Below, piece after piece: positions 36,468-62,135 of a stretch of 64,000 nucleotides of DNA. The position numbers were made by a program, and so were the translations under genes. Where the stretch lies: the NCBI GenBank assembly GCA_014360645.1, contig JACIXD010000005.1:62001-126000 (forward strand), written 5' to 3'. Position 1 is the stretch's first letter, and every line of letters begins with the position of its first letter. The DNA comes from Actinomycetota bacterium. Its GTDB lineage: Bacteria > Actinomycetota > Geothermincolia > Geothermincolales > RBG-13-55-18. Under the pieces are notes generated by a model. It was not told the origin of the DNA and ran no database searches. It saw only the letters and a list, made by a program, of their open reading frames with translations.

Positions 36468-36663
36468 GGCCGCGGTCTTCTTTGACCGGGAAGGCAAGCT
36501 GGAAAAAGTGATGGATGACGTGGTGGAGATGAGGCCCGAGGAGGGTAAGCTCCTCCTGGTGGACGTGTTCGGAGAGCAGAAGCTGGTCTCGGCGAGGATA
36601 AGCCGGGTCGACCTCATGGACCACCAGGTCATCCTGCGCGAGGTCGCGGGCCGAGAGCCCTGA
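36460..36663 (+). CDS. CooT family nickel-binding protein
   Basis: A 67-residue protein beginning MCEAAVFF, with the family core RPEEGKLLLVDVFGEQKLV and VDLMDHQVIL. CooT from Rhodospirillum rubrum binds nickel through Cys2 for carbon monoxide dehydrogenase maturation; many homologues stand alone as here. It overlaps the DUF3842 gene. The last 24 codons lie in a tandem duplication. Confidence 0.85.
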   Translation: MCEAAVFFDREGKLEKVMDDVVEMRPEEGKLLLVDVFGEQKLVSARISRVDLMDHQVILREVAGREP

Positions 36664-36945
36664 GCGTCCGGGGCCTGCAGGATACCGGGGGCATCGCCGC
36701 CGGCCCCACCCCGCTTTCGCCTCGGCGAGGATAAGCCGGGTCGACCTCATGGACCACCAGGTCATCCTGCGCGAGGTCGCGGGCCGAGAGCCCTGAGCGT
36801 CCGGGGCCTGCAGGATACCGGGGGCATCGCCGCCGGCCCCACCCCGCTTTCGCCTCGGCGAGGATAAGCCGGGTCGACCTCATGGACCACCAGGTCATCC
36901 TGCGCGAGGTCGCGGGCCGAGAGCCCTGAGCGTCCGGGGCCTGCA
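36588..36945. repeat. 133-bp tandem repeat, 2.7 copies, at the 3' end of cooT
   Basis: CTCGGCGAGGATAAGCCGGG begins at 36588, 36721 and 36854, with no difference seen over 358 bases. Each copy includes the last codons and stop of the CooT-like gene plus about 60 bases beyond. Later copies are out of frame and lack a start, so they are non-coding gene-end duplicates. Confidence 0.9.
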
Positions 36946-37050: not shown

Positions 37051-38034
37051 CTATCTCGCGGCGGCGCCCGCAGTCCGGGCTCCCGGAAGGTCCAGCTCCC
37101 ACTTGCCGCAGCGCCCGCCCCAGCGCGCCAGCACGTCTCCCTCCACCATGATCTTCACGATTTCGCAGTTGTTGGAGCAGCCCTTGCAGTTGAAGCTGGA
37201 GGTGCGGTACTCGATCTCCGTGACCCGGAACCCTTTGAAGCAGGTGGCTGTGGGGTTGAGGTCGCGGGCCAGCAGGGCGGCCCCGATGGCCCCCATCACC
37301 GCGAAGTGCTCGGGCACCACCACCTCCATGCCCAGGGCCTCCTCGAAAGCCCTCTTCATGCCCACGTTGGCGGCCACCCCGCCCTGGAAGACCACCGGCG
37401 CCTCCACACTCTTGCCCTTGGCCAGGTTGTTTAGGAAGTTGCGCACCAGGGCCTCGCAGAGCCCGAGGATGATGCTGTCTACCGGGTGGCCCACCTGCTG
37501 CTTGTGGATCATGTCCGACTCCGCGAACACCGAGCAGCGCCCCGCGATCTGCACTCCCGTCTCCGCACGCAGGGCGTAGGCGCCGAACTCCTCGATGGGG
37601 ATGTTGAGGCGCGCCGCCTGGTGGTCCAGGAAAGAGCCGGTTCCCGCCGCGCACACCGTGTTCATGGCGAAATCGACCACGATGCCGTCCTGGAGGATGA
37701 TGATCTTGGAGTCCTGCCCGCCGATTTCCAGCACCGTGCGAACGTCGGGCACCACGTGCAGGGCGGCCACGGCGTGGGCGGTGATCTCGTTCTTCACGAT
37801 GTCCGCTCCCACGATCACCCCGCTGAGGTGGCGGGCGCTTCCGGTGGTCCCCGCCCCCAGCACCTCCACGCCGGCCGGGAGCTGGGCACCCAGCTGACGC
37901 AGGCCTTCCTGCACGGCGCTGATGGGCTGACCCTTGGTGCGCAGGTACACGGAGGCCGCGACCTCGCCGCTCTCCTCCAGGAACACCAGGTTGGTGCTCA
38001 CCGAACCAACATCCACGCCCAGATAACCTCTCAA
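37051..38034 (-). CDS. 2-hydroxyacyl-CoA dehydratase activase (BcrAD/BadF/HgdC family)
   Basis: An ATP-dependent [4Fe-4S] activator that injects an electron into 2-hydroxyacyl-CoA dehydratases or benzoyl-CoA reductase-type enzymes. The ASKHA ATPase fold shows GVDVGSVSTNLVFLE, GAGTTGSA, EIGGQDSKII, CAAGTGSFLDHQA and GRCSVFAESDM. The C-terminus adds a cysteine cluster (CKGCSNNCE, GRCGKWE) seen in one subgroup. The start is TTG with CAGGAGGAAGCC before it. The dehydratase subunits lie 2 kb away on the same strand. Confidence 0.9.
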   Translation of the reverse strand: MRGYLGVDVGSVSTNLVFLEESGEVAASVYLRTKGQPISAVQEGLRQLGAQLPAGVEVLGAGTTGSARHLSGVIVGADIVKNEITAHAVAALHVVPDVRTVLEIGGQDSKIIILQDGIVVDFAMNTVCAAGTGSFLDHQAARLNIPIEEFGAYALRAETGVQIAGRCSVFAESDMIHKQQVGHPVDSIILGLCEALVRNFLNNLAKGKSVEAPVVFQGGVAANVGMKRAFEEALGMEVVVPEHFAVMGAIGAALLARDLNPTATCFKGFRVTEIEYRTSSFNCKGCSNNCEIVKIMVEGDVLARWGGRCGKWELDLPGARTAGAAAR

Positions 38035-38246: not shown

Positions 38247-39146
38247 GTGCGGGGCCTGAGCTGGAAGGGCGGCGGCAGGATATATCACAATCCCCCGCGG
38301 GAGAGAGAGAAGGACATCGACCGCTTTCCCCACATGTACACGGTGGCGGAGGAGTTCAGGATCGCCCTGCGCCACCGCATCCTGAACGAGCTCCGGACCT
38401 ACGAAGACTACATACCCGGAAACGGGATGCTCACCGCCAGGGGGTGCTACGGAGCCTGCACTTTCTGTCTCGACCCCGTGCTCTGGGGAAGGAAGACCGC
38501 ACGCCATGGCACGGAGTACGTACGCCGGGTGGTGGAATGGTGTTGGGATAATTACCCAGACGAAAGCCGGCTCTTCTATTTCGGGGACGCCAGCTTCGTG
38601 ACCGACCGCGATTGGCTGTTCGAGCTGCTGGGCATGTTGCGGGACATCCCCTATGCCTATAACGCCCAGACGCGCGTGGAATCCCTCACCCCCGAGGTGC
38701 TGCGCGCCATGGCCGAATGCAACTTCGCCACCGTGGGCATGGGAGCGGAGAGCTTCAACCATGACGTGTTGCGCCGTACGGTGAGGAAACGGGGCGGCCG
38801 CGAGGAGGTGCTGCGGGCGGCCAGGGAAGCGAGGCGTCTCGGGATGAGGGCCATACTCAGCTTCATCGTAGGCCTCCCCGGGGAGGGGCGCGACAGCCTG
38901 GAGGAGACCCTGGAGACGCTGCGGAGGGAGGGCATCAAGGACGCCGCCTTCTTCCCCCTGGTGGTCTTCCGCGGCACCGAGCTCTTCGAGCGCCTGGCGG
39001 CGGAGAGGACCCCGGAGGAGATGGAGGAGCTGCGCCTGACCCCCTGGTCGGAGGAGTACTACATGGTGGGGGAGGAATTCCCCACCGTGGCCTCGCTGGT
39101 GCGCTGCGCGGACGAGCTCAACCTGCGGGTCAGAGAGGTCCCCTGA
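38247..39146 (+). CDS. B12-dependent-type radical SAM protein, 5'-truncated
   Basis: The radical SAM core is intact, with GCYGACTFC and the later MGAESFNHDVLRRTVRK and FIVGLPGEGRDSLEET. The start GLSWKGGGRIYHNPPRE is the linker that follows a B12-binding domain in this family. In-frame sequence before the GTG (from about 38147) still encodes a domain-end-like LELLSALARGEREF, but a TGA lies just beyond and the rest of the domain is missing. It is therefore probably a truncated remnant, though a 299-residue core may still be expressed. Confidence 0.7.
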   Translation: MRGLSWKGGGRIYHNPPREREKDIDRFPHMYTVAEEFRIALRHRILNELRTYEDYIPGNGMLTARGCYGACTFCLDPVLWGRKTARHGTEYVRRVVEWCWDNYPDESRLFYFGDASFVTDRDWLFELLGMLRDIPYAYNAQTRVESLTPEVLRAMAECNFATVGMGAESFNHDVLRRTVRKRGGREEVLRAAREARRLGMRAILSFIVGLPGEGRDSLEETLETLRREGIKDAAFFPLVVFRGTELFERLAAERTPEEMEELRLTPWSEEYYMVGEEFPTVASLVRCADELNLRVREVP

Positions 39147-39395: not shown

Positions 39396-39953
39396 TCAGA
39401 CCAGCTCGTCTATGTCCAGGGGGATGCCCTTGCGCTTGTCCTGGACCAAGCCGGGAGCTCCCTCCTCGCAGCGGTCCGCGCAGAGGCCGCACCCCATGCA
39501 CAGCTCGAAGGCCACCACCGCCCTGCCTTCCCCGTCTAGGGAGACGGCCGCGAAGGGACAGGCCTGCGCGCAAGTGCCGCACCCGGCGCAGAGGGAGCGC
39601 TCGATGCGGCAGGCGCAGTCCATGGCCACGATGTGCTGCGGCTGCTCCAGGATGATGCGGTGGGCGTGGGGAAAGGGAACCACGCGCGCGCTCAACTCGG
39701 GGTCCACGGTGATGTCGCGGTCCAGGGTTAAGAGCTTGGCGGCCTGCTCCGGGGTGAGCACCTTGCAGTGGTAGCGGTTGAAGAAGAAGTCGAAGATGAA
39801 GCGCCCGCGGGGGAAGACGCGGATGTACCTGCGGGCGATGGCCATGAGGGTCTTGATGTAGTAGTCGATCCAGCGGTAGTAGACGTAGCCGTGGACGGCC
39901 CGGTCCACCCTCCAGCCGTTCGCGCGGAACAGCCGCCGCGTCGATTCCTTCAC
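39396..39953 (-). CDS. Ferredoxin-like protein, short paralogue
   Basis: A 185-residue protein. Its first 110 residues match the paralogue at 50473 (GWRVDRAVHGY, then RYHCKVL, MDCACR). Two [4Fe-4S] motifs follow (CAGCGTCAQACPF, CMGCGLCADRCEEG). About 115 residues present in the paralogue between MDCxC and the clusters, including a NCCPRCC segment, are absent. It may serve as electron donor to the dehydratase activase. GTG start; it directly follows the dehydratase genes. Confidence 0.8.
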   Translation of the reverse strand: MKESTRRLFRANGWRVDRAVHGYVYYRWIDYYIKTLMAIARRYIRVFPRGRFIFDFFFNRYHCKVLTPEQAAKLLTLDRDITVDPELSARVVPFPHAHRIILEQPQHIVAMDCACRIERSLCAGCGTCAQACPFAAVSLDGEGRAVVAFELCMGCGLCADRCEEGAPGLVQDKRKGIPLDIDELV

Positions 39954-40030
39954 CCCGCCCCCTCATCTCGCGCACGCGGTCCTGCGGGCACGCAATCCGG
40001 CATCCGTGCCGTCGGGATGGCCTCCCCTTC

Positions 40031-41473
40031 TCAGCCGCTCTCCGCCGCCGCATCCCCCGACGGCCCGGCCTTCTTGCGCCTGGCCTGAGCCCTTTTTCTC
40101 GCCACCACCTGCTCCACGAAGGTCTTCACCTCTTCCTGGAAGATCTCCATGGGAGTGTGCCGCTTGTCGAAGACGTCCCCGGTGAGCATGAGGGTGGGCA
40201 GCCCCAGTCTCTTCATCATCTCCCGCCGGAAGAAGGCCGCCGTACCCAGGGTGTGTTTGCAGGCGTGCACGCCTCCGAAGACGCAGGCATCCGCCCCCAG
40301 GTCCTGGGCGGCCCAGGCGACGTCGTCCAGCCAGCGGAGGGAGATGGACTCCCCTCCCATCTGCCTGGTCATGGGATAGTCGAAGGCGATGTCCGCCAGG
40401 CCTTCGAGCATGCTTTCCTTGGTAGAAAAATCCATCTCCGGGAAGAAGTGGATGGCCAGGATGTCCCCAAGGATGCTGATGCCCTGCTTCTCCAGCCAGG
40501 TGAAGTAACCGGAGAAGTCGAAGAGCCAGTAGATGTAGGTGATATATATCCGGGCCAGCTCCTCTCCCGCCGTGTACTCGCCCTTGCGCAGCCTCTCCTT
40601 GGATATGTCCACCATCTTCTGCAGCACGTCCACGGCCTCCTGGCGCCCCCAGAGCTGGCTGCGCAGCACCAGCAGGGTCATGCTGAAGATGTTGGGGACC
40701 GGGCAGGGCCTGGCCTTCTTGAGCTCCCAGTATTCGTGGTAGAGCCTCACCGCCTGGTAGGACTTCTCCAGGACCTCGCGCAGACGCTCCTCCCTCATCT
40801 CCGAGCCGGACCATTCCTCCAGCTCCCGGATGAACCTCTTCATGTATCCGCGGTATAGCTCGCGGCCCCGCGCCGACTCGTCCACCGGCTTCTCCAGCAC
40901 GAACTGGGGGATGCCCAGGTAGTCGGAGGCGAAGGCGTGGATCTTGGCGTTGGGGTTGCAGCTGCCGGCGGAGTTGTAGACGATGGCGTCGGGCCTGATG
41001 CCCGGCCCCATGAACAGGGGCATGGTGCCGATGGTGTTGGCGGAGCACAGGGAGTCGGGCAGGCCCAGGCCCATGGCGAAGTCCCAGAAGCGCTCCCCCT
41101 GGCCGTAGCAGATGTTGGTGATCAGGCCGCCCACGATCTCGGTGCACAGGGGGAAGATGTTGTCGAAGGCGTAGAAGATCTCGGGGGGGAAGGTGAAGGG
41201 GATGAAGACCAGCTTCTTGCCTTCCTCCTGGGCCCGCTGCGCCTCCTTGAACACGCCCAGCAGGAGGCGGAAGAAGAACAGCTCCAGCTCCCGGTCGGCG
41301 GGAAGCTCCAGCAGCCCGATGACGGTGTGCTGAAGCTCCGGGAAGACGAAGTTCTTCATGGCCTCCACGTCCTCCTCGCTCAGGTTGTCGGGGAGCTTGT
41401 AGATCATCTCCAGGATGCCCATGGCGCGCTCGAAGCCGTTCTCCCCCTCGCGCATGACGAATCCCTTTTCCAT
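40031..41473 (-). CDS. 2-hydroxyacyl-CoA dehydratase subunit (HgdB/FldC-like)
   Basis: A 480-residue protein of the benzoyl-CoA reductase/2-hydroxyglutaryl-CoA dehydratase family. Cluster-ligand regions are SLCSANTIGTMPLF and YNSAGSCNPN, and FGGVHACKHTLGT lies in the C-terminal part. The ATG shares one base with the stop of the preceding subunit gene, so the two subunits are made together. The chemistry expected is radical removal of water from a 2-hydroxyacyl-CoA; the substrate is unknown. Confidence 0.85.
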   Translation of the reverse strand: MEKGFVMREGENGFERAMGILEMIYKLPDNLSEEDVEAMKNFVFPELQHTVIGLLELPADRELELFFFRLLLGVFKEAQRAQEEGKKLVFIPFTFPPEIFYAFDNIFPLCTEIVGGLITNICYGQGERFWDFAMGLGLPDSLCSANTIGTMPLFMGPGIRPDAIVYNSAGSCNPNAKIHAFASDYLGIPQFVLEKPVDESARGRELYRGYMKRFIRELEEWSGSEMREERLREVLEKSYQAVRLYHEYWELKKARPCPVPNIFSMTLLVLRSQLWGRQEAVDVLQKMVDISKERLRKGEYTAGEELARIYITYIYWLFDFSGYFTWLEKQGISILGDILAIHFFPEMDFSTKESMLEGLADIAFDYPMTRQMGGESISLRWLDDVAWAAQDLGADACVFGGVHACKHTLGTAAFFRREMMKRLGLPTLMLTGDVFDKRHTPMEIFQEEVKTFVEQVVARKRAQARRKKAGPSGDAAAESG

Positions 41474-42597
41474 CACGCCGCACCCCCTATCCTCTCCATG
41501 AAGGCCTGCACGCGCGTCTTCACCCTCCCGATGTCCGCCCTGGCGCTGTACTCCTTCTCCAGGACCAACACCGGTATGCCGGCCTCCTCCAGGTCCCGGC
41601 GCACCAGCACGGAGTCCACGCCGTGCAGGTCGCAGAACTTGTTGTAGAGGTAGATGACCCCGTCCACCCTGGCGCGGCGGGCCGTCTCCAGGATGAGCTC
41701 CCGGCGCCGCGGGTACTCCTTGTACATGCGGGGGCAGAAGATGCTGGAGAGGTAGGTCTCGGCCAGGCGGCGCAGGGGCGGCCCCTCCTCCGGCACGCTG
41801 CGAGAGAAGGCGCGCGCGCCGAAGCAGAGGGCGTCGGCCACCACCACCGCCCCCAGGCGCTCGATCTCCTCGAACCACTCCACCTCGTCGCTGGCGGGGC
41901 CGCAGAGCATCAGCCGGGCCGCCGGCCTGGCCCCCGGAGCCCCTTTCCTCTCCTCCATGAACCGCTGGAGAAGGGCGGCGAAATCCCTGCTCAACATGGA
42001 AGAGCCCTTCACCTCCAGGGCCAAGGCCTCGCTCCCGCTCACCGCGGGCCTGTCCTGCTCGCGCAGAGCGGAGAGATCTCGCCACCTCTCCCTCACCGTC
42101 TCCCAGCCGCGTATGGCCTCATCCAGGGCCTCGTCGGTCACGCGAGAGGAGAACTTCTCCTCCAGCAGCCCCTTGAGCTCTCCCAGCTGCTCCTCGAAAT
42201 AGGCCAGGGAGTCGTCGCGGAAGAAGTGGGGCACTTTGAGGTAGTAGAAAGCGTCGAGCTTTTTTCGGTGCTGCCAGTTCTCGAACATGGCCCGCAGGTG
42301 GTCGCAGCCGTTGGTCTCGATGAGCCCGTCGAGAAAATCGTAGGTGCCGTCCAGACAGAGCTGCAGGCAGGCGCGGCAGAAGGAGCAGTTGAAGAGGGAC
42401 ATCTCCCCGTCGGCCAGTTCGGTCTCCGCGTTGCCCAGGGCCTTGATGCGGTAGGGGAGGAGGCCCGCCGCCTCGACGATCTCCACCGGGGTGGCTACGC
42501 AGGAATACCCCACCACCTTGCCTCCCGCGGCCTTCCATTCCTTGACGTAGTCGTTGTATATCTCAGTCTCCCTTCCCAGGGCGGTCGCCGTATCCAT
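41473..42597 (-). CDS. 2-hydroxyacyl-CoA dehydratase subunit (HgdA/FldB-like)
   Basis: A 374-residue partner subunit. The N-terminus has GYSCVATPVEIVEAAGLLP, the C-terminal half has YLYNKFCDLHGVDSV, and an extra cysteine pair lies in NCSFCRACLQLCLDG. ATG at 42597 follows GGGGGTGAAGGGC. It lies directly downstream of an unknown helical protein gene and overlaps the next subunit gene by one base. Confidence 0.85.
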   Translation of the reverse strand: MDTATALGRETEIYNDYVKEWKAAGGKVVGYSCVATPVEIVEAAGLLPYRIKALGNAETELADGEMSLFNCSFCRACLQLCLDGTYDFLDGLIETNGCDHLRAMFENWQHRKKLDAFYYLKVPHFFRDDSLAYFEEQLGELKGLLEEKFSSRVTDEALDEAIRGWETVRERWRDLSALREQDRPAVSGSEALALEVKGSSMLSRDFAALLQRFMEERKGAPGARPAARLMLCGPASDEVEWFEEIERLGAVVVADALCFGARAFSRSVPEEGPPLRRLAETYLSSIFCPRMYKEYPRRRELILETARRARVDGVIYLYNKFCDLHGVDSVLVRRDLEEAGIPVLVLEKEYSARADIGRVKTRVQAFMERIGGAA

Positions 42598-42602
42598 GCC
42601 CT

Positions 42603-44024
42603 TCACCCCCTCCGTGCCTTCACGCGGCCCCGCAGGCCTCTGAGGTATCCTCTGGCGCTGCCGCAAACGAGCGAGAGGGCCGTCTTGAACAAGGCTTTCA
42701 GCACCTCCGGATGGCGCGAGAGGGCCTGCGCTACTTGGCCTGACGCCGACCTGGCAGCCATTTCCAGCTCATGCGTGTCCAGGCCCGCAAGGAAGGCGTC
42801 CGTCCTTTCCGCCAGCAGGTCGGGGTGAGCGCCGGCCCAGTGGTTGTAGGCGGCAAGCGCGCGGTTGAACCCCCTCGCCGCGGCCTCGGGGCTCACCTCC
42901 ATACCCAGGGCGGAGAGGGTCTTGCGAGACAGGGCCGCGACCAGCCCGGGGTTCTCCGCTATCATCTTGCGATTAAAGTCCACGAGGCTGGTCACCGCCC
43001 TTCCCAGCTCTCCGACCTCCAGGTCCTCGGCCAGGCTGGCGGCCATCCTCCCCAGGGCCTCGCGCGGCAGCGCGTTGGCCTTCTCCAAGACCGAGGAGGC
43101 GAAGAGAAAGAACGAATTGGCCACCGCGACCATGGACTCGAACAGCGGCAAGGCCAGGCCCTCGTTCTCCAGGACCTTGCCCGCCAGCGCGCCGGCGAAG
43201 GCCTCTGCCTCCTCCCCCAGGGCGGCGATGGCCTCTGCGAGCACCTGTCCGTCGAGGGCGGGGACCAGGTCCGAGCCGATGCGCTGGAACGGCCCCCGGG
43301 TATAGAGGCTCCCGTCTCCCAGGATGAGGCTGCCGCGGTGGATGTTGACGATGAAGGCGGTGGCGCCGTTGATGATGGCGGCGACATCCTTCCACGCGAT
43401 GTCCTGCAGGATCTTGAAAAGGGCGTAGGTCACCGCCTCCGCGGGGAGTGCTAGGATCTCGAAGAGCTTCACGAGCACCGGCAACGCGTCGTTCACCACG
43501 GGAGCGACCACGCTGAAGATGTTGATGAGGGCCATGGGGTTGTCTCCCAGGATCTCCACCTCCCGGCGCAGCAGGTTCAACCTCTCGCCGGCCTTGTAAG
43601 TGACGGCCTTGCGGAGCTTGCCGAAGTCCGTGGCCTGCATGAACTCGGACAAAGTCTCCGCCCTGGTCTCTGGCAGCAGATCGGGCTGTTCCTCGTGCAT
43701 GCGGATTATGAGGCGGGAAAGGGCATTCACGGCCCGGGATATCTCCGCGCCGTCTATGCGGGCGTGGGCCGAGGCCATGAGCTCGGCGCTCTTCTCCGCC
43801 GGCAGGCTCTCCAGCGCTTCCGCGAAGGCCCTCACCGCCTGGGCGGCCGTGCTCACCAGGCGCGGTAGGGCCTCCAGCACCGCCGCCGCGAACTCGCCGT
43901 CGTCGCGGAAAAGGGCGTTCGCCAGCTCGGCGGGATCGCCCGCCCTGAGCCCCTCCACCAGTCGTGCCGCCGCGACTCTCAACTCTTCCCCCGTCAGGGG
44001 CGCACCTCGCTCTTTCACAGCCAT
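42603..44024 (-). CDS. Unknown helical protein, family member C
   Basis: About 473 residues, almost wholly predicted amphipathic helix, with few charged clusters and a basic C-terminal tail. No database family is recognised. A central segment (DNPMALINIFSVVAPVVND) has the same DP-x-Leu-Ser-x-Gly/Val-x-Leu-Pro-x-x-Asn layout as the proteins at 44880 and 45571. Membrane-surface or acyl-chain binding is conceivable but inferred only from composition and context. Its 5' end is triplicated. Confidence 0.75.
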   Translation of the reverse strand: MAVKERGAPLTGEELRVAAARLVEGLRAGDPAELANALFRDDGEFAAAVLEALPRLVSTAAQAVRAFAEALESLPAEKSAELMASAHARIDGAEISRAVNALSRLIIRMHEEQPDLLPETRAETLSEFMQATDFGKLRKAVTYKAGERLNLLRREVEILGDNPMALINIFSVVAPVVNDALPVLVKLFEILALPAEAVTYALFKILQDIAWKDVAAIINGATAFIVNIHRGSLILGDGSLYTRGPFQRIGSDLVPALDGQVLAEAIAALGEEAEAFAGALAGKVLENEGLALPLFESMVAVANSFFLFASSVLEKANALPREALGRMAASLAEDLEVGELGRAVTSLVDFNRKMIAENPGLVAALSRKTLSALGMEVSPEAAARGFNRALAAYNHWAGAHPDLLAERTDAFLAGLDTHELEMAARSASGQVAQALSRHPEVLKALFKTALSLVCGSARGYLRGLRGRVKARRG

Positions 44025-44313
44025 CCCCCTCACCTCGCCGCCAAGACTTTCCCGCAGGACGCGGCCTGCCTGCCGCGAGCCGTGCCGCCCCCGCCCCCCG
44101 TCAGGGGCGCACCTCGCTCTTTCACAGCCATCCCCCTCACCTCGCCGCCAAGACTTTCCCGCAGGACGCGGCCTGCCTGCCGCGAGCCGTGCCGCCCCCG
44201 CCCCCCGTCAGGGGCGCACCTCGCTCTTTCACAGCCATCCCCCTCACCTCGCCGCCAAGACTTTCCCGCAGGACGCGGCCTGCCTGCCGCGAGCCGTGCC
44301 GCCCCCGCCCCCG
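43988..44313. repeat. 107-bp tandem repeat, three copies, over the start of gene C
   Basis: GTCAGGGGCGCACCTCGCTC recurs at 43993, 44100 and 44207 with no difference seen. Each unit carries the ribosome site, ATG and first 12 codons of the downstream minus-strand gene. The two extra copies form 33-residue open frames (44137-44238 and 44030-44131), each ending with TGA about five bases before the next copy's ATG. Confidence 0.9.
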
Positions 44314-44356
44314 CGGGGACGCCAGGTCGGCTCCGCGGTAAGCTCCCCGGCTCTAC

Positions 44357-44785
44357 TTATCCCGCCGCCGCCTCTTTCTCTCCCTTCCACGGGACGGCGC
44401 GCGCGAGAAGCGCGATATAGAGCACGAAGAACCAGAGGATGAAATGCATTCCCCAGGAGGACGCCTCCCTGCGCAACAGCCTGCGCGCTATGAGCAGACA
44501 GGTGAGCGTCTTGTACATGATCTGGGTGTAGAGCACCGGCAGGTATCTCTCGCATTTCTCCTCGTCGCGCAGGGCTGCCGCGGAGAGCACCCCCACCGAG
44601 GTGACGATGGAGCCGTAAATGCCCATCATCACCGGGTCCTCGTGCGGCCACTTCAGGAGCTTGCGGACGAGATCCGGCGCCAGTACCATGGGGGGGCCGG
44701 CGCTGAAACACATCGCCGTGTTGTACGCATACATGAACCTCAGCCGGCTCTTCTCGCTCTTGAGACGGTTATCATCGTCCGCCAT
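44357..44785 (-). CDS. Small integral membrane protein of unknown function
   Basis: About 142 residues with three or four hydrophobic segments, for example YNTAMCFSAGPPMVLAPDLV, MGIYGSIVTSVGVLSAAAL and HFILWFFVLYIALLARAV. No family is recognised. ATG at 44785 follows GGGGGTCGGGC. It lies inside the operon between unknown helical proteins B and C and may anchor them at the membrane; that is inference. Confidence 0.7.
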   Translation of the reverse strand: MADDDNRLKSEKSRLRFMYAYNTAMCFSAGPPMVLAPDLVRKLLKWPHEDPVMMGIYGSIVTSVGVLSAAALRDEEKCERYLPVLYTQIMYKTLTCLLIARRLLRREASSWGMHFILWFFVLYIALLARAVPWKGEKEAAAG

Positions 44786-44879
44786 GCCCGACCCCCTTTC
44801 CGGTCCGCTCACGGTTCCACGGCTCGCGTCGCGTCGGCTTCACGGCTTGCAGTCGGGACTCTCCAGCCGCAAAACCTTT

Positions 44880-45557
44880 TTATCCACGCACCCTTTTCAC
44901 AGCGGCTCGTACTACCAGGAGAGCGGCGGCCGCCCCTGCCAGCGGGAGCACCTTCCGCGCCGCTTCCGCGCGTTTTTTGGCACCTTCGGGACGCGCGGCG
45001 GCGGCCGCCACCGCGCCAAGGTGCCGGAGCGACCTCGCCAGCGCCGCCGTATCCAGTTCCTTCCATATGGCGGCGAGGTCGCGCGCCACTATATCCCGCC
45101 TCTCCTCCAGGCCGGCGGTGAAGGCCTCCAGGCGGCCCAGGATGCCGTTGACGGCGTCCACGACGGCGGCGCGGACCTCCTCCGGGGCCGCTTCATCACC
45201 GATGGCCAGCCGCTTCGCGAGCCGCCCGTATACCTCCGGAAGCTGTTTCAGCCGCTCCCCGTCGATGCCGCCCCCCACCTGCCCCAGGATGTCCTTGAGC
45301 AGCGGCTCCGGGAGCCCGTTGAGCTGACGTCCCACCTCGAGGAGCAGCTCCAGCAGCCAGTTCAGCATGTCGGGAAGGGCACCGAAGAGGCTCATGGAGA
45401 TGCCGGGGTCTCCCCACAGCAGGGTCTTCACAAGTCCCGGTGCGGTCTCCGCCTTGATGTCTTTCATCTGCAGGAGGATGATCTCCTTGAGAGCCGGGGT
45501 GGCGATGATCTCCCTCAACAGGCGCTCCCCCAGTCCGACCGGCGCCGGATCCTGCAT
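44880..45557 (-). CDS. Unknown helical protein, family member B
   Basis: About 225 residues. Its N-terminal half aligns with protein A at 45571: LLREIIATPALKEI with ILRELIRTPRFKET, then a DPG...G.LP...N...E.L.E block and a PLL...GIDG block. The C-terminus ends in a hydrophobic stretch (LPLAGAAAALLVVRAAV) followed by basic residues, like a tail anchor. No known family is recognised. It starts 13 bases after the stop of protein A. Confidence 0.75.
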   Translation of the reverse strand: MQDPAPVGLGERLLREIIATPALKEIILLQMKDIKAETAPGLVKTLLWGDPGISMSLFGALPDMLNWLLELLLEVGRQLNGLPEPLLKDILGQVGGGIDGERLKQLPEVYGRLAKRLAIGDEAAPEEVRAAVVDAVNGILGRLEAFTAGLEERRDIVARDLAAIWKELDTAALARSLRHLGAVAAAAARPEGAKKRAEAARKVLPLAGAAAALLVVRAAVKRVRG

Positions 45558-45570
45558 CCCGTTCACCCCC

Positions 45571-46275
45571 TTACTCCTTGCCGCCGGCTTTTTTCACGGA
45601 GGATCCGCCGGCTGACGCCTTGCTTTTCGCCGGTGTCCCCAGCACCGGCTCCAGGATGGGCCTGAGCACGTTTTCCACGAAGGAAGGGTTCTCCCTCACC
45701 GCCCGGGCCGCCGCCTGTACGAAGCCGTGGAAGGCGGACTCCGGGTCTTGGGCACGTTCCGCCGCCCCCGCCATCCAGGCCCCGAGGCGCTCGCTCAGCG
45801 CCGCGCCGCCCGCCGCCTCGGCATAGGCGCGGCCGAAGTCGGACCCCACCGCGGCGAGGCTTCGCCTGAGACCACTCCCTTCCTCGGAGACCCCCAGCGA
45901 GAGGGCCGAGGACACCAGCCCGCCGACGGCCTCTCCCGCCGACTGCCCGTCGATACCCGCCACCACCCGATCGAGGAAATCCTGCAGCAGGGGCGGAGGC
46001 ATGGTCTTCATCTGGCAGGCCACCTCCGCCAGGGCCTCGCTTACGACGTTGATGAGGGCGGGGAGGCTGCCCATGATGGAGAGCAGGAGCCCCGGATCCT
46101 GCCAGAAAAGGGTGCGCACCAACCTCCTTGCCGAGGGCGGGTCGATGGAGTTGAGCAGTATGATCACGGTCTCCTTGAACCTGGGGGTGCGGATCAGTTC
46201 GCGGAGGATACGGTCCGCCGCATCCAGGAGGCCCTTGGTCTCCACGGCGGCAACGGTCTCGGTACCGGTCTTCAT
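45571..46275 (-). CDS. Unknown helical protein, family member A
   Basis: About 234 residues, mostly predicted helix. The signature block reads DPGLLLSIMGSLPALINVVS, with FLDRVVAGIDGQSAG downstream. It has a Lys/Gly/Ser-rich tail. It is a paralogue of protein B and, more distantly, of protein C. ATG at 46275 has GAGGTG seven bases upstream. About 210 GC-rich bases separate it from the acyl-CoA dehydrogenase gene upstream, without a visible gene. Confidence 0.75.
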   Translation of the reverse strand: MKTGTETVAAVETKGLLDAADRILRELIRTPRFKETVIILLNSIDPPSARRLVRTLFWQDPGLLLSIMGSLPALINVVSEALAEVACQMKTMPPPLLQDFLDRVVAGIDGQSAGEAVGGLVSSALSLGVSEEGSGLRRSLAAVGSDFGRAYAEAAGGAALSERLGAWMAGAAERAQDPESAFHGFVQAAARAVRENPSFVENVLRPILEPVLGTPAKSKASAGGSSVKKAGGKE

Positions 46276-46488
46276 CCTCATCACCTCACATCTCAAGGTC
46301 TCGGTGGAAGCGGGGAACCGTTATCGCGTGCTCCAGGTACCTTCCCCCGGGCGGCATCGCGTGCCTCCAGCCCGCCTCCCCGTATCCGTATTACCCAGTA
46401 TTTGTCCGTCCCGGTGCTGCGCCTCGCCGCGCAGCCTTCCGCGCCGTTCCGTTCCTGCCGCTCGGCGTTCTTCCATCCGCCCCTCGCC

Positions 46489-47721
46489 CTACAGGGTGAC
46501 GGTACGGTAGAACCAGCGCGCGAAGTCGTGCTTGGCCAGCTCGTAGGCGCCGAGATGGCACTGCAGCGTCTTCACGTCCCGCCAGTAACGTTCCAGTTGC
46601 CATTCCTTGGCATAGCCCGCTGAGGCCATGAGCTCCATGGTGCGGTTGATGGTGTATTCCGCCGAGGCGCATGCCTGGTGGGCGAGCATGAGAGCGGTGG
46701 TGTACAGCGCCTGCGAGCCGTCGCCGCCGTACGCGTCGGGCTCCGCCAGCATGCCCGCGAGTTCGTAGGCGAGCAGCCTCACCACGCCGGTCTCCTTGGC
46801 GATCTCGCCCATGAGGGCCGCGGTGAGAGGGTTGTCTTTGAAGATGTGGTCCTTGCCCTTGATCACGCGGTTATCCCCCCACTCCCGGATGATCTCGTAG
46901 TTGGCCAGGAGCGCCCCCGAGGCGGCGGCAGCCACTCCCAGGTAATACCAGGAGAGGAGGCGGAAGGTCCCCTGGTCTCCGCGCCATATGCAGTGCGCTT
47001 CCGGAACCGTGACCTCCAGGGACACCAGGTCCGCGTTGCGGCTCGCCGCCAGCCCCGTCTTCTTGAGCTCGGGGCCGCGCCTTATCCCCGGCGTGTCTCC
47101 AGGGATGAGGATAAAAGCCGCTTCCTCGCCCTCCACCGCGCACCAGGCGCCGAAGAGGTCCGCGTCCAAGGCCGAGCAGGTAGGCCTGATCATGCTGCCC
47201 CTGACCCTCCAGGTGTCGCCTGTCTTTTTGGCCGCCGCCTGGAAGCCCTTGCCCCTCCACTCCGGCGTGCCCTCCTCCTCCGCGAAGGCGGGCAGGATGA
47301 AGGAGACGACGAGGGGCCTTTCGCCGGAGCAGAAGCGCGGCGCGAAGGCGGCGCAGGCCTCCTCGTTGCGGGCGCCCTCCAGCGCCATAGCCGCCTGCAG
47401 GGCGAGGCTGTGGGCGGCCAGGAAGGCGAGGCCGGTATCCGCCCAACCCACCTGCTCCAGGGCGGCGGCCACGGTGTAGGCGGCGGAGGGGCTGTTGTGG
47501 CCCTCGCCGCCGTGCTCTTCGGGCCAGAACATCTTCTGCAGGCCTATGTCCAGCATGATCTTGGCCAGGGAAGGCGCCAGCAGCCGCTCGAAGTCCTCCT
47601 TGAGCTCCAGGCGCTTGTCCACGATCTCCTTCTCCACCATGGCCTGCAGGGTCGAGGCCAGGTCGAGGTCGGCCTTGTCGAGCCTGTTTCTCGGAAAGGG
47701 AATGATCTCCGAACCGTTCAT
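46489..47721 (-). CDS. Acyl-CoA dehydrogenase-like subunit, probably non-catalytic
   Basis: A 410-residue protein with the acyl-CoA dehydrogenase fold (FWPEEHGGEG near residue 65, C-terminal WRDVKTLQCHLGAYELAK). The usual flavin-contact motif TEPxxGSD is replaced by unrelated sequence. The residue matching the catalytic Glu of the VEGS/YEGT motif is Leu in CHLGA. It ends ARWFYRTVTL, very like its neighbour. Such degenerate partners occur in heterotetrameric dehydrogenases of the ChsE type, so it is probably the second subunit of the enzyme encoded upstream. Confidence 0.85.
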   Translation of the reverse strand: MNGSEIIPFPRNRLDKADLDLASTLQAMVEKEIVDKRLELKEDFERLLAPSLAKIMLDIGLQKMFWPEEHGGEGHNSPSAAYTVAAALEQVGWADTGLAFLAAHSLALQAAMALEGARNEEACAAFAPRFCSGERPLVVSFILPAFAEEEGTPEWRGKGFQAAAKKTGDTWRVRGSMIRPTCSALDADLFGAWCAVEGEEAAFILIPGDTPGIRRGPELKKTGLAASRNADLVSLEVTVPEAHCIWRGDQGTFRLLSWYYLGVAAAASGALLANYEIIREWGDNRVIKGKDHIFKDNPLTAALMGEIAKETGVVRLLAYELAGMLAEPDAYGGDGSQALYTTALMLAHQACASAEYTINRTMELMASAGYAKEWQLERYWRDVKTLQCHLGAYELAKHDFARWFYRTVTL

Positions 47722-47769
47722 CTTCTCCCCCCGCTCTCTTTCCTCAGGACCCCTTGCCCGCGGCGCTCC

Positions 47770-49038
47770 CTAGAGGGTCTCGCATTCGTAGAACCAGCGG
47801 GCCACCTCGATCTGGCAGAGCTGCTTGGAACCCTCCACGAGCTGGAGGATCTTGAGGTCCCTCCAGTGTTTCTCCACATCCCAGTCGCGGTCCGTCCCGT
47901 AGGCCTCCATGAGGTTCATCACCCTGCCGGTCACGTCGATGAATCGGTCCATGGCCAGGTAGCGCTGGGCGCGCATCTTGGCCACCAGCCCCGGGTGCCA
48001 CAGGGGGCCGTAGAGGTCGTGGCGGTCGCACATGCGCGCGCACTGGTAGCCCACGATGCGGATGTTCTCGATGTTGGCAGCGAAGTCCGCCAGCAGTCCC
48101 GCCACCCCGTCGTCCTCCTTGAGGGGCTTGCCGCGGTAGCGCTTGCGGTTCACGTAATCCACCAGGCGCTCGTAGATGTTCATCATGGCGCCGGATATCC
48201 AGGCGATGATCCCCATGTTCCCCGTGGCCATGACCTCCCCGAAATACTTGGCGTCGTCTCCCGGGCCGATTGCGCGGTACCAGAGAGGGACGCGCACGTT
48301 CTCGAACCAGATGTCCGAGTTCATGTCCGCCGCCATGCCCGCCTTCTCGTACGGCGGCCCCTGGGTGACCCCCGGTGTGTCGTCCTTGACGAAGATCACC
48401 GCGATGTCGCGGGGGTCGTCGGAGCCGGGATTGGTGGTGCAGACCACGGCCATGAGCTTTGCCAGGCCACCGGTGTTGGACGGCCAGAGCTTGTGCCCGT
48501 TGATGACCCACTCGTCGCCGTCCCGCACCGCCGTGGTCTGGATGGTGGTGCCTTTGACGATCTCCACGTTCTCGATATCCGATCCCCCCTGGGGCTCGGT
48601 CATGCACAGGGCGGCGAACACCGGCTCGGTGGTCTCGCAGAACATGGGCGCGAACTCCTCCAGCAGGCGCCGGTTCTCGTGGGGCTCCAGGGCGATGAAG
48701 AGGAAAGGCCAGAAAAGGGCGCCGAAGGCCAGGGCCATCCCAGAGTCCGCGCGCGCTATCTCCTCGAACATGCGGAAGGCGGCCACGCACATGTAGTTAG
48801 ACCTCCCCATCCCCCATCCCCCCAGGTCCTCGGGGAAGATCATGCGCTGCAGGCCGTATTCGCCCAGGAGCTTCTTGAAGGGTGGGTGGATGAGCTGGTG
48901 GTCGCGGTAGTCCTCGTCGAACTGCCTGCGGTAGGGGATGACCTCCTTCTCCACCCATTCCCGGAAGATGGAGCCCAGCAGGCCGTCCATGGGCGAGATG
49001 TATTCCAGCGGGCGGGTGAAATCGTCGATGTTCCTCAT
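47770..49038 (-). CDS. Acyl-CoA dehydrogenase, catalytic subunit
   Basis: A 422-residue flavoprotein that introduces a double bond next to the CoA thioester. It has FPEDLGGWGMG, the flavin motif CMTEPQGGSDIENV, and RDLKILQLVEGSKQL with the expected catalytic Glu. The first gene of the operon, 49 bases before its degenerate partner. A promoter with a built-in operator lies at 49232-49260. The acyl substrate is unknown. Confidence 0.92.
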   Translation of the reverse strand: MRNIDDFTRPLEYISPMDGLLGSIFREWVEKEVIPYRRQFDEDYRDHQLIHPPFKKLLGEYGLQRMIFPEDLGGWGMGRSNYMCVAAFRMFEEIARADSGMALAFGALFWPFLFIALEPHENRRLLEEFAPMFCETTEPVFAALCMTEPQGGSDIENVEIVKGTTIQTTAVRDGDEWVINGHKLWPSNTGGLAKLMAVVCTTNPGSDDPRDIAVIFVKDDTPGVTQGPPYEKAGMAADMNSDIWFENVRVPLWYRAIGPGDDAKYFGEVMATGNMGIIAWISGAMMNIYERLVDYVNRKRYRGKPLKEDDGVAGLLADFAANIENIRIVGYQCARMCDRHDLYGPLWHPGLVAKMRAQRYLAMDRFIDVTGRVMNLMEAYGTDRDWDVEKHWRDLKILQLVEGSKQLCQIEVARWFYECETL

Positions 49039-49492: not shown

Positions 49493-50185
49493 TCAGCCCC
49501 GGTCCCGGCGCGGCCTGGTCTTTTTCGCCGTGCTGGCAGCCCCGCCCGTCCTCGCCCCGCGGATGATGAGGTCTATGGCGGACTCGCAGATATCGGTGAT
49601 GCGCGACGGCTCGAGGAGCAGGAGGTCGTCGAGGAGCGCCAGCTCCACCAGGCTGGTTGCCAGCCTCCAGCACATGAGGCTGAACCCGTAAGGGTCGAGG
49701 CGCGGAGAGAAGGCGCCGGAGTCGATGCCCTCCCGCACCAGGGAGGCGCCGTTCTCCAGCCACTGCCGGATGTAGTTCTCTATCTGCTCTATGGAGTCCC
49801 GGGAGAGGTTGCGGCGCACCTGTTCGATGAAGGTATCGCGCAGCACCATGAACAGCGCGGGCTGCTCCAGGGCGTGCTCCACGTAGGCCAAAAAGACCGC
49901 CTTTATCCTGCCCTCTAACCCTCTGGCCTCGTTGAAGGCCTTGGTGAGCCGGTCTCCATACCCGGTGAGGGCCGACAAGCACACCGATAGGTAGAGCTCC
50001 TCCTTGCTCTTGAAGTAAAGGTAGACTCCGCCCTTGGAGATCCCGGCCCGTTCGGCGATCTCCTGCATGGTGGTGTTCCGGAAGCCCTTCTCGGAGAAGA
50101 GCAGCTCCGCGGCCTCGAGCGCCGCCCGCCGCCGCTCCCGTTTTTTCGCTTCCCTGCGCGAGGTCTTCCCCCTTGCCGTCACCAC
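49493..50185 (-). CDS. TetR family transcriptional regulator
   Basis: A 230-residue regulator. The N-terminal helix-turn-helix reads FRNTTMQEIAERAGISKGG followed by VYLYFKSKEELY. The ligand-binding C-terminal part and a basic tail follow. The start is GTG preceded by GAGAGGC. It stands upstream of the acyl-CoA dehydrogenase operon and divergent from the long ferredoxin-like gene. Shared palindromes near both promoters suggest it represses the region in response to an acyl-CoA-like ligand; the ligand is inferred from context only. Confidence 0.9.
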   Translation of the reverse strand: MVTARGKTSRREAKKRERRRAALEAAELLFSEKGFRNTTMQEIAERAGISKGGVYLYFKSKEELYLSVCLSALTGYGDRLTKAFNEARGLEGRIKAVFLAYVEHALEQPALFMVLRDTFIEQVRRNLSRDSIEQIENYIRQWLENGASLVREGIDSGAFSPRLDPYGFSLMCWRLATSLVELALLDDLLLLEPSRITDICESAIDLIIRGARTGGAASTAKKTRPRRDRG

Positions 50186-50472: not shown

Positions 50473-51372
50473 ATGGTCAAGGAATCCACGAAAAAGGTAT
50501 TTCGCCTGCACGGGTGGCGGGTGGACCGAGCAATCCATTACTACATCTATTTTCTTTTCTACGACATCTACGTGAGGGTGGCGCTCTATGCCACCAAGGC
50601 CATCGTCGCTCTCTTCTCGCGCTTCGAGGCCACCAAATACATACCCAAGTTCATCTTCGACCGCTACCACGCCAAGGTGCTCTCGCGCTCCGACGTGACC
50701 AAGATCCTCGACCTGGAGGAGACGGTGATGCTGGGCCCGGACACCACGGGGAGGATCGTTCCCTTCAAGTACGCCAACAAGATCGTGCTGCGCGAGCCCA
50801 CGCACCTGGCGGTCATGGACTGCCCCTGCAAGAAGGAGCTCAAGGACCCCTGCCAGCCCCTGGCCTCCTGCATAGCGGTGGGCAGGCCGGTGGTGGATTT
50901 CTGGATGGAGCACTGCCAGAGGCACCACGTGCGCCGCATCACCAGGGAGGAAGCCCTGGAGATCATCGACCGGCACCGCCGCAGCGGGCATATCAACCAG
51001 GCCTTCTTCAAGGTGGCCACGGGAGGCAGCATGGGGGCGATCTGCAACTGCTGCCCCAGGTGCTGCGTATCCATGCGCGCCACCGCGCTGGCGCAGCGCA
51101 TCAAGGGCGCGGAGGAGATATCCATGTACGCGCCGTCGGGCTATACCGCCCGCCACGACCCCGGCAAGTGCAAGCTGTGCGGCGAGTGCGTGAAGGCATG
51201 CAATTTCGGGGCGGTGGAGATGGTGGATGGAAGGCGCGTTTACCGCCCCGAGAGATGCTACGGCTGCGAGCTGTGCGTGGAGAACTGTCCCAACGGAGCG
51301 CTGGAGCTGGTGCTCGAGGAAGGCGGCCTCATCCCCCTGGACATGGAGCTGCTGCGGGAAAAACTGGGCTGA
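50473..51372 (+). CDS. Ferredoxin-like protein, long paralogue
   Basis: A 299-residue iron-sulfur protein. A 100-residue N-terminal domain of unknown type (GWRVDRAIHYYIYF, FDRYHAKVL) leads to MDCPCKKE. Then come a middle region with ICNCCPRCC and two C-terminal [4Fe-4S] clusters (CKLCGECVKACNF, CYGCELCVENCPN). It is divergent from tetR and likely donates electrons in the dehydratase pathway. GGGGTGAG precedes the ATG. Confidence 0.85.
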   Translation: MVKESTKKVFRLHGWRVDRAIHYYIYFLFYDIYVRVALYATKAIVALFSRFEATKYIPKFIFDRYHAKVLSRSDVTKILDLEETVMLGPDTTGRIVPFKYANKIVLREPTHLAVMDCPCKKELKDPCQPLASCIAVGRPVVDFWMEHCQRHHVRRITREEALEIIDRHRRSGHINQAFFKVATGGSMGAICNCCPRCCVSMRATALAQRIKGAEEISMYAPSGYTARHDPGKCKLCGECVKACNFGAVEMVDGRRVYRPERCYGCELCVENCPNGALELVLEEGGLIPLDMELLREKLG

Positions 51373-61203: not shown

Positions 61204-62135
61204 ACGGCGTGGATGAGCTCCTCGTAGGCGAGGACGCCCTGGCGGAGATGATCCTGCGGGCGAAGGAGGAGCGCCGCGCGATCATCCTGGCCCATAACTA
61301 CCAAAGGCCCGAGGTGCAGGACATCGCCGATTTCGTGGGCGACTCCCTGGGGCTGGCCCGCCAGGCGGCCTCCACCGACGCCGAGGTCATCGTCTTCTGC
61401 GGGGTGCACTTCATGGCCGAGACCGCCTCCATCCTCTCCCCCGAAAAGGTAGTGCTCCTGCCGGATATGGAGGCCGGCTGCCCCATGGCGGACATGGCCG
61501 GGGCCGCGCAGGTGAGGAAGGCGCGGGAAGAGCATCCCGGGGCGGCGGTGGTCTCCTACGTCAACACCACCGCGGCGGTGAAGGCGGAGAGCGACTGCTG
61601 CTGCACCTCCTCCAACGCCGTGGAGGTGGTACGCAGCGTGGAGGCGGAAGAGGTCATCTTTGTCCCGGACCGCAACCTCGCCGCCTACGTGGCGGACCGG
61701 GTGCCCGAGAAGAGGATCATCCCCTGGGACGGGTTCTGCCACGTGCACCAGGGCATCCAGGCCGAGCATGTGCTCAAGGCCCTGGAGGAGCATCCCCGCG
61801 CCGAGGTCATCGCCCACCCCGAGTGCACGCGGGAGGTGCTGGCGCTTGCCCATCACATCCGCAGTACCTCCGGCATGGTGGACGCCGCCGCCGCCTCGCC
61901 GGCCGAGGTGTTCATACTGGCTACCGAGGCGGGCATGATCCATCCCCTGACCAAGGCGGTTCCCGGCAAGAGGTTCTACCCGCCCGCCCGCGAGCCCGTG
62001 TGCCCCAACATGAAGCTCACCACCTTGACTAAAGTGCTCAGGGCGCTGGAGACTCTTACGCCCCAGGTCCGTGTGCCGGAGGAGATCAGGGTAAGGGCCC
62101 TGCGGGCGGTGGAGAGGATGCTGGCGCCGGCATGA
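61200..62135 (+). CDS. nadA: Quinolinate synthase A
   Basis: A [4Fe-4S] enzyme that condenses iminoaspartate with dihydroxyacetone phosphate in NAD synthesis, 311 residues. The opening ILAHNYQRPEVQDIADFVGDS is diagnostic. Cluster cysteines are in MEAGCPMADM, HPECTREV and PVCPNMKL. ATG at 61200 overlaps the iscU stub stop. NadB and NadC are not in the window. Confidence 0.95.
   Translation: MNGVDELLVGEDALAEMILRAKEERRAIILAHNYQRPEVQDIADFVGDSLGLARQAASTDAEVIVFCGVHFMAETASILSPEKVVLLPDMEAGCPMADMAGAAQVRKAREEHPGAAVVSYVNTTAAVKAESDCCCTSSNAVEVVRSVEAEEVIFVPDRNLAAYVADRVPEKRIIPWDGFCHVHQGIQAEHVLKALEEHPRAEVIAHPECTREVLALAHHIRSTSGMVDAAAASPAEVFILATEAGMIHPLTKAVPGKRFYPPAREPVCPNMKLTTLTKVLRALETLTPQVRVPEEIRVRALRAVERMLAPA

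Follow-up and report, generated by a model that had tools for sequence, protein, structure and literature searches.

The ATP-dependent radical enzymes of the family that includes benzoyl-CoA reductases (BCRs) and 2-hydroxyacyl-CoA dehydratases (HADs) catalyze reductions that rank among the most difficult in biology and, to our knowledge, act on few substrates. Here we analyze a real and conserved, apparently undescribed system that combines a BCR/HAD-type radical enzyme with an unusual pair of acyl-CoA dehydrogenases (ACADs) and a new family of helical proteins. It lies on the minus strand of a 64,000-nucleotide stretch, hereafter the window (positions 62,001 to 126,000 of contig JACIXD010000005.1, assembly GCA_014360645.1). 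The source genome is that of a hot-spring actinobacterium, a Candidatus Solincola-like member of the Geothermincolia (Actinomycetota), and the window ACAD subunit ACD1 is 99% identical to ACD1 of Ca. Solincola daggyaiensis. An original prediction, made from the letters of the window alone, had proposed an anaerobic route for a hydrophobic acyl-CoA encoded by one operon.

Class I BCRs reduce aryl-CoA at the expense of ATP and have two different ATPase subunits. Their Bzd type (BzdNO with BzdPQ; PDB 8s02) is built, like the window system, from two HGD-D subunits and a BadF-type ATPase. The [8Fe-9S] cluster of BzdN is ligated by Cys36, Cys73, Cys100, Cys263, Cys293 and Cys327, whereas the [4Fe-4S] cluster of BzdO is held by Cys95, Cys128 and Cys380, with Glu65 and His131 as acid/base residues (PMC11971306). 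HGDb and HGDa of the window share all six cysteines of the former and all three of the latter, and differ from Bzd in that an ACAD pair and helical proteins are coupled to the reductase core. The dehydratases of the HadBC/HadI type (PDB 3o3m) likewise have HGD-D α and β subunits, an activase, and an active-site glutamate. The double-cubane cluster proteins (DCCPs; PDB 6eno) belong to the same HGD-D family, whereas in the window the pair is of the heterodimer type and one partner is a [4Fe-4S] subunit. On the flavoenzyme side, bulky steroid CoA esters are substrates of known heteromeric ACADs in which one subunit bears the glutamate (PMC8399759); in ChsE4/5 and Scd1AB, as in the window, the two ACAD genes are adjacent and the glutamate is present in one subunit only. 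Nothing comparable to the helical family was found among Pfam, NCBIfam, or PDB folds.

We propose, with a probability of about one half, that the operon codes for a redox complex of anaerobic acyl-CoA metabolism in which a radical reductase and heteromeric ACADs act, together with helical scaffold or presenter proteins, on a bulky or hydrophobic acyl-CoA. The open reading frame (ORF) listing places nine minus-strand ORFs between 49038 and 39396, with an activase nearby at 37051, at the positions that had been predicted. In order of reading, the genes are:

47770..49038, minus strand: ACD1, acyl-CoA dehydrogenase subunit with the canonical catalytic Glu (Pfam ACAD domains, alignment, tree)
46489..47721, minus strand: ACD2, divergent subunit of an acyl-CoA dehydrogenase, devoid of the catalytic Glu and probably paired with ACD1 (Pfam, alignment)
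45571..46296, minus strand: H1, all-helical protein of an unnamed family, alternative start possible at 46275 (no Pfam or NCBIfam match)
44880..45566, minus strand: H2, paralogous to H1, its hydrophobic C-terminal segment a candidate tail anchor (paralogy, AlphaFold2, hydropathy, fusions)
44357..44812, minus strand: MEM, small membrane protein, alternative start possible at 44785 (hydropathy, alignment, distribution)
42603..44033, minus strand: BIG, helical repeat protein with several H-like units (H profile matches, AlphaFold2)
41473..42597, minus strand: HGDb, HGD-D subunit with six double-cubane [8Fe-9S] cysteines (Pfam, alignment to BzdN)
40031..41476, minus strand: HGDa, HGD-D subunit with three [4Fe-4S] cysteines; Pfam HGD-D assigned to 40031-41464 (Pfam, alignments to HadB and BzdO)
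39396..39953, minus strand: FERR, 4Fe-4S ferredoxin-like protein, possible electron donor (Pfam Fer4)
37051..38034, minus strand: activase, BadF/BcrAD ATPase (Pfam, TIGR00241)

Pfam and NCBIfam together recognize the ACADs, the HGD-D subunits, the activase, and the ferredoxin.

Iron-sulfur enzyme and activase

HGDb and HGDa most likely form an ATP-dependent radical reductase built on the class I BCR plan. The top PDB match of HGDb is BzdN (E 7.7e-46), and its C33, C71, C98, C258, C288, and C322, which align with the six cluster cysteines of BzdN, are invariant in 20 sequences. In HGDa, C140, C169, and C402 align with BzdO C95, C128, and C380 and are invariant in 22 sequences; Glu109, invariant in the same 22, aligns with a HadB glutamate (Glu55 by our own count) and has roughly the right spacing for BzdO Glu65. 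HadC, placed in the same alignment as BzdN and HGDb, has no cysteine at the position of BzdN C263 and HGDb C258. The conservation of the cluster cysteines, combined with this missing ligand in HadC, speaks for an ATP-dependent reductase of the multi-electron kind rather than for a dehydratase without net redox change. The activase passes the TIGR00241 model with 188.2 bits against a cut-off of 125.4.

The original prediction had named HGDb and HGDa a 2-hydroxyacyl-CoA dehydratase. In its fullest form this would be a module like those of reductive amino-acid or lactate fermentation, where HGDab dehydrates the substrate and the ACADs act as enoyl-CoA reductase on the product. An HGD-D pair with a single activase, as laid out in the window cluster, fits such a module, as do the HadB, HadC, and acryloyl-CoA reductase models found among the matches and the invariant equivalent of HadB Glu55. 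The cysteine set nonetheless weakens this reading, as C258 completes a double-cubane set that HadC lacks in the alignment; moreover, the operon has neither a CoA-transferase nor EtfAB, the scores lie far under the NCBIfam cut-offs for HadB (42 against 750) and HadC (149 against 700), and the ACADs mostly lack a catalytic base. We consider the dehydratase module unlikely, and, judging from the alignments, the dehydratase label needs correcting to a BCR-type double-cubane radical reductase.

Acyl-CoA dehydrogenase pair

Window ACD1 carries the canonical catalytic glutamate, equivalent to E376, within the motif QLVEGSKQL; it was located by alignment with an MCAD reference, and the position is borne out by PDB alignments. 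This glutamate is present in 14 of 58 ACD1 sequences, including the window copy and its closest A-type orthologues, and is replaced by Met or Leu in most others. At the corresponding position, ACD2 has Leu, Val, Thr, or Met in 48 of 48 sequences (Leu in the window). The two proteins are ACADs by Pfam, as originally described, but the description needs correcting in that the pair looks heteromeric, with one subunit always devoid of the catalytic base. Enzymes of the ChsE type are α2β2 complexes with FAD at the dimer interface. The window pair differs from ChsE4/5 and Scd1AB in the anaerobic type of its hosts and in the absence of the glutamate from both subunits of most homologues. In the ACD1 tree, the window copy sits in a Geothermincolia-specific branch beside lineages that lack the glutamate, so either this branch regained the residue or several losses occurred. 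A recent wholesale transfer is not needed to explain the tree, which mostly follows phylum.

Helical proteins and the membrane

H1 is a paralogue of H2 (37% identity, E 5e-21), and the H-family profile retrieves BIG within the same genome (E 9.7e-10), which bears out the claim that the three helical proteins are related. Most BIG orthologues contain two to five H-profile matches each, and the H/BIG family is composed of repeated helical units of ~100 residues. The AlphaFold2 models of H2 and BIG are all helical, with predicted local distance difference test (pLDDT) scores of 83 and 78, respectively. The earlier view that these proteins fall outside recognized families also holds: H1, H2, BIG, and MEM, the last searched by Pfam and NCBIfam only, match no family of either database above cut-off, and for H1, H2, and BIG the matches were weak, scattered, and confined to one or two members. 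Foldseek returned no credible PDB fold for H2 or BIG, nor did a VIA-align re-check of H2, a Foldseek comparison of BIG with viral proteins, or the H alignment used as a sequence profile against the PDB; the top hit of this last search, 7bqq ('Gogy', E 0.0016), was taken as chance.

Hydropathy shows two hydrophobic segments in MEM and one at the C terminus of most of the H2 orthologues checked; the H2-BIG fusions have such a C-terminal segment as well. Fusion of H2 with MEM occurs in one relative (L053) and with BIG in others (L042, L048, and L050), and these fusions suggest, by the usual argument, that the proteins associate physically. A membrane link is plausible for this part of the gene set, given the H2 tail and both kinds of fusion. 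Our best guess is that the H proteins and BIG form a membrane-tethered scaffold or an acyl-chain presenter.

Hydrophobic tails and MEM would also suit an enzyme of membrane-lipid synthesis or modification to which the helical proteins present the lipid. The analogy is with the HGD/BadF-domain plasmalogen synthases, which combine activation and reduction/dehydration domains (PMC12838417) and whose products are membrane lipids. Of the alternatives weighed here we find this the least probable: the window has separate HGD-D subunits, of which HGDb is closest to BzdN, rather than a PlsA-type fused architecture, and the ACADs and linked β-oxidation-type genes indicate CoA esters.

Conservation and modularity

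Loci with the gene order ACD2-ACD1-H-BIG-HGDb-HGDa-activase(s) were found again in archaea as well as in Geothermincolia, Bacillota, and deltaproteobacterial lineages. A scan for relatives of ACD1 gave 54 loci, all from metagenome-assembled genomes (MAGs) by title; they belong to Geothermincolia, Bacillota, and deltaproteobacterial lineages, with a single euryarchaeote. Where at least 6 kb follow ACD1, H/BIG is found downstream in 33 of 35 loci and HGDb, too, in 33 of 35; the linkage of both to ACD1 is far beyond chance. An assembly artefact is ruled out, as the arrangement recurs across many independent MAGs. The gene set is thus conserved in other anaerobic-type lineages, and neither outcome that the original prediction had named as contrary to it, a match of the helical proteins to a family of unrelated function or neighbors conserved in no relative, was found.

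The H family is present in 16 of 18 genomes of the window's order and in 25 of 396 genomes sampled from its phylum, all 25 belonging to the window's class. With some of the matches weak, it was also detected in the sampled phyla of a deltaproteobacterial locus (L092; 19 of 345 genomes), a Syntrophomonadaceae locus (L078; 2 of 348), and an archaeal locus (L087; 11 of 247). Two records stand apart: a MAG titled Acidimicrobium ferrooxidans (L080, L191) has a Geothermincolia-type cluster, and its name is probably wrong; a 3.1-kb contig of an Ectothiorhodospiraceae MAG (L085) carries a full ACD1 (62% identity) with H/BIG repeats and is possibly a binning error.

In other phyla and archaea, the cluster often runs on into a pair of activases, a MinD-like ATPase, and an ACS-domain-like protein; some loci add a DCCP-like HGD pair (L084, L103). 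Two distinct activases are also found in B-type clusters, as in class I BCRs, and the activase pair of L103 matches the BzdQ, BcrA, and BcrD models below their cut-offs. Within the window's order, the ACS-domain-like protein occurs in exactly the 16 H-bearing genomes; the two genomes without H, which are single genomes and one of them 62% complete, have no such protein except full-length ACS.

The cluster also comes apart into modules. Three loci (L183, L184, and L188) have BIG-HGDb-HGDa-activases with no adjacent ACAD, whereas an archaeal locus (L182) has H-ACD1-ACD2 with no HGD, near genes for an MFE-2 hydratase, a reductase, and an aldehyde dehydrogenase. BIG therefore travels with the HGD/activase core and the small H proteins with the ACADs; BIG is the member of the helical family most tightly tied to that core. 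This modularity bears on a different idea, namely that HGD and activase are an ATP-driven electron pump that takes electrons from the flavins of the ACADs and raises them to the potential of ferredoxin by reverse electron transfer, with the helical proteins holding the complex at the membrane. Tight linkage of the ACAD and HGD/activase genes in syntrophic-type and acetogenic-type lineages would agree with it, as would the ferredoxin-like genes adjoining the A-type cluster. However, the active-site glutamate and substrate-type [4Fe-4S] cysteines of HGDa are invariant and the BIG-HGD-activase set exists without ACADs, so that the core can work alone, which makes the pump improbable in our view.

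Genomic context

Further features of the window are:

49493..50185, minus strand: TetR-family regulator upstream of ACD1 (kept in relative L051)
50473..51372, plus strand: divergent gene for a full-length 4Fe-4S ferredoxin-like protein (retained alongside the A-type cluster in relatives)
43988..44312, no strand: tandem repeat of three perfect 107-bp copies, extending from upstream of BIG into its 5' end (sequence)

Both the TetR regulator and the divergent ferredoxin-like gene accompany the A-type cluster in relatives. FERR resembles a paralogue of the product of the divergent gene, minus its middle part. The best curated match of the regulator is FadR, far below cut-off. From ACD1 to FERR the intergenic gaps are, in order, 48, ~190, 4, 67, 323, and 5 bp, an overlap, and 77 bp. 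Most are small, as had been stated. The 323 bp between MEM and BIG are largely occupied by the 107-bp array (3.0 perfect copies). A second perfect tandem array of the window, at 36588-36945, has 2.7 copies of 133 bp. FERR and the activase are separated by a plus-strand ORF (38247-39146) that looks radical-SAM-like by eye; in the relative L051 the activase immediately follows HGDa.

The window genome has a second, paralogous cluster on another contig (C1), in the order ACD2-ACD1-H1-(H2-BIG fusion)-HGDb-HGDa-activase-activase'-HGDa'. A third locus, on contig C3, has genes for an activase, a MinD-like ATPase, and an ACS(CdhC)-domain-like protein; nearby genes encode an MFE-2-type hydratase, an acyl-CoA ligase, and a 3-oxoacyl reductase. 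On C3, the standalone ACS (CdhC) domain-like protein and the adjoining MinD/CooC-like ATPase lie at ~149,800-151,500 (L200 and L201). The TetR regulator and the linked ligase, hydratase, and reductase genes indicate acyl-CoA metabolism, in agreement with the acyl-CoA role first proposed.

Proposed mechanism

In the proposed redox complex, HGDb and HGDa would be the radical reductase, the [8Fe-9S] double cubane of HGDb serving as store and the [4Fe-4S] cluster of HGDa binding the substrate. The reductase would receive low-potential electrons through the ATP-hydrolyzing activase, with the ferredoxin-like proteins as the probable source. ACD1 and ACD2 would pair as a heteromeric flavoenzyme, hydrogenating or dehydrogenating either the same CoA thioester or a neighboring one. 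H1, H2, and BIG may bind the enzymes as scaffold or substrate-presenting partners, and H2 and MEM may tether them to the membrane in this lineage. The acyl-CoA on which the complex acts is likely bulky or hydrophobic.

Several observations weigh against this proposal. First, HGDa and HGDb fall far under every curated BCR (BcrC included), HAD, and DCCP cut-off: the BzdN and BzdO models of NCBIfam score 151.8 against 453.8 and 18.4 against 448.6, the window cluster is likewise far below the BzdQ cut-off, and the best NCBIfam score of HGDb, to the double-cubane cluster protein model NF040772, is 185.7 bits against 350. Second, the position of BzdO His131 is an invariant Asn172 in HGDa (n=22), so the proton chemistry must differ from that of BzdO. 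Third, a single activase lies near the window cluster, not two as in Bzd, others being elsewhere in the window genome. Fourth, most homologues have no canonical base in either ACAD, which makes ordinary dehydrogenation doubtful there. Fifth, a clear hydropathy tail is confined to H2 and some fusions, and MEM was not seen outside Geothermincolia, where it was seen only in the A-type cluster. Finally, the flanking genes vary among lineages.

A bolder form of the proposal, possible but doubtful, is that this is a new, ancient anaerobic system of bacteria and archaea. Its ATP-driven radical reductase of the double-cubane type and its heteromeric flavoenzyme, the active site of which would have been remodeled, would work on a membrane-bound scaffold made of the new helical family and convert a hydrophobic acyl-CoA by chemistry unlike that of any characterized enzyme. 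No description of the cluster was found in the literature searched, which covers only part of what is published. The conserved residues and gene fusions yield concrete, testable predictions. With its new accessory protein family and changed active sites in both enzymes, a cluster conserved among archaea and anaerobic-type bacteria of several phyla suggests that acyl-CoA metabolism without oxygen includes a widespread step that is still unassigned.

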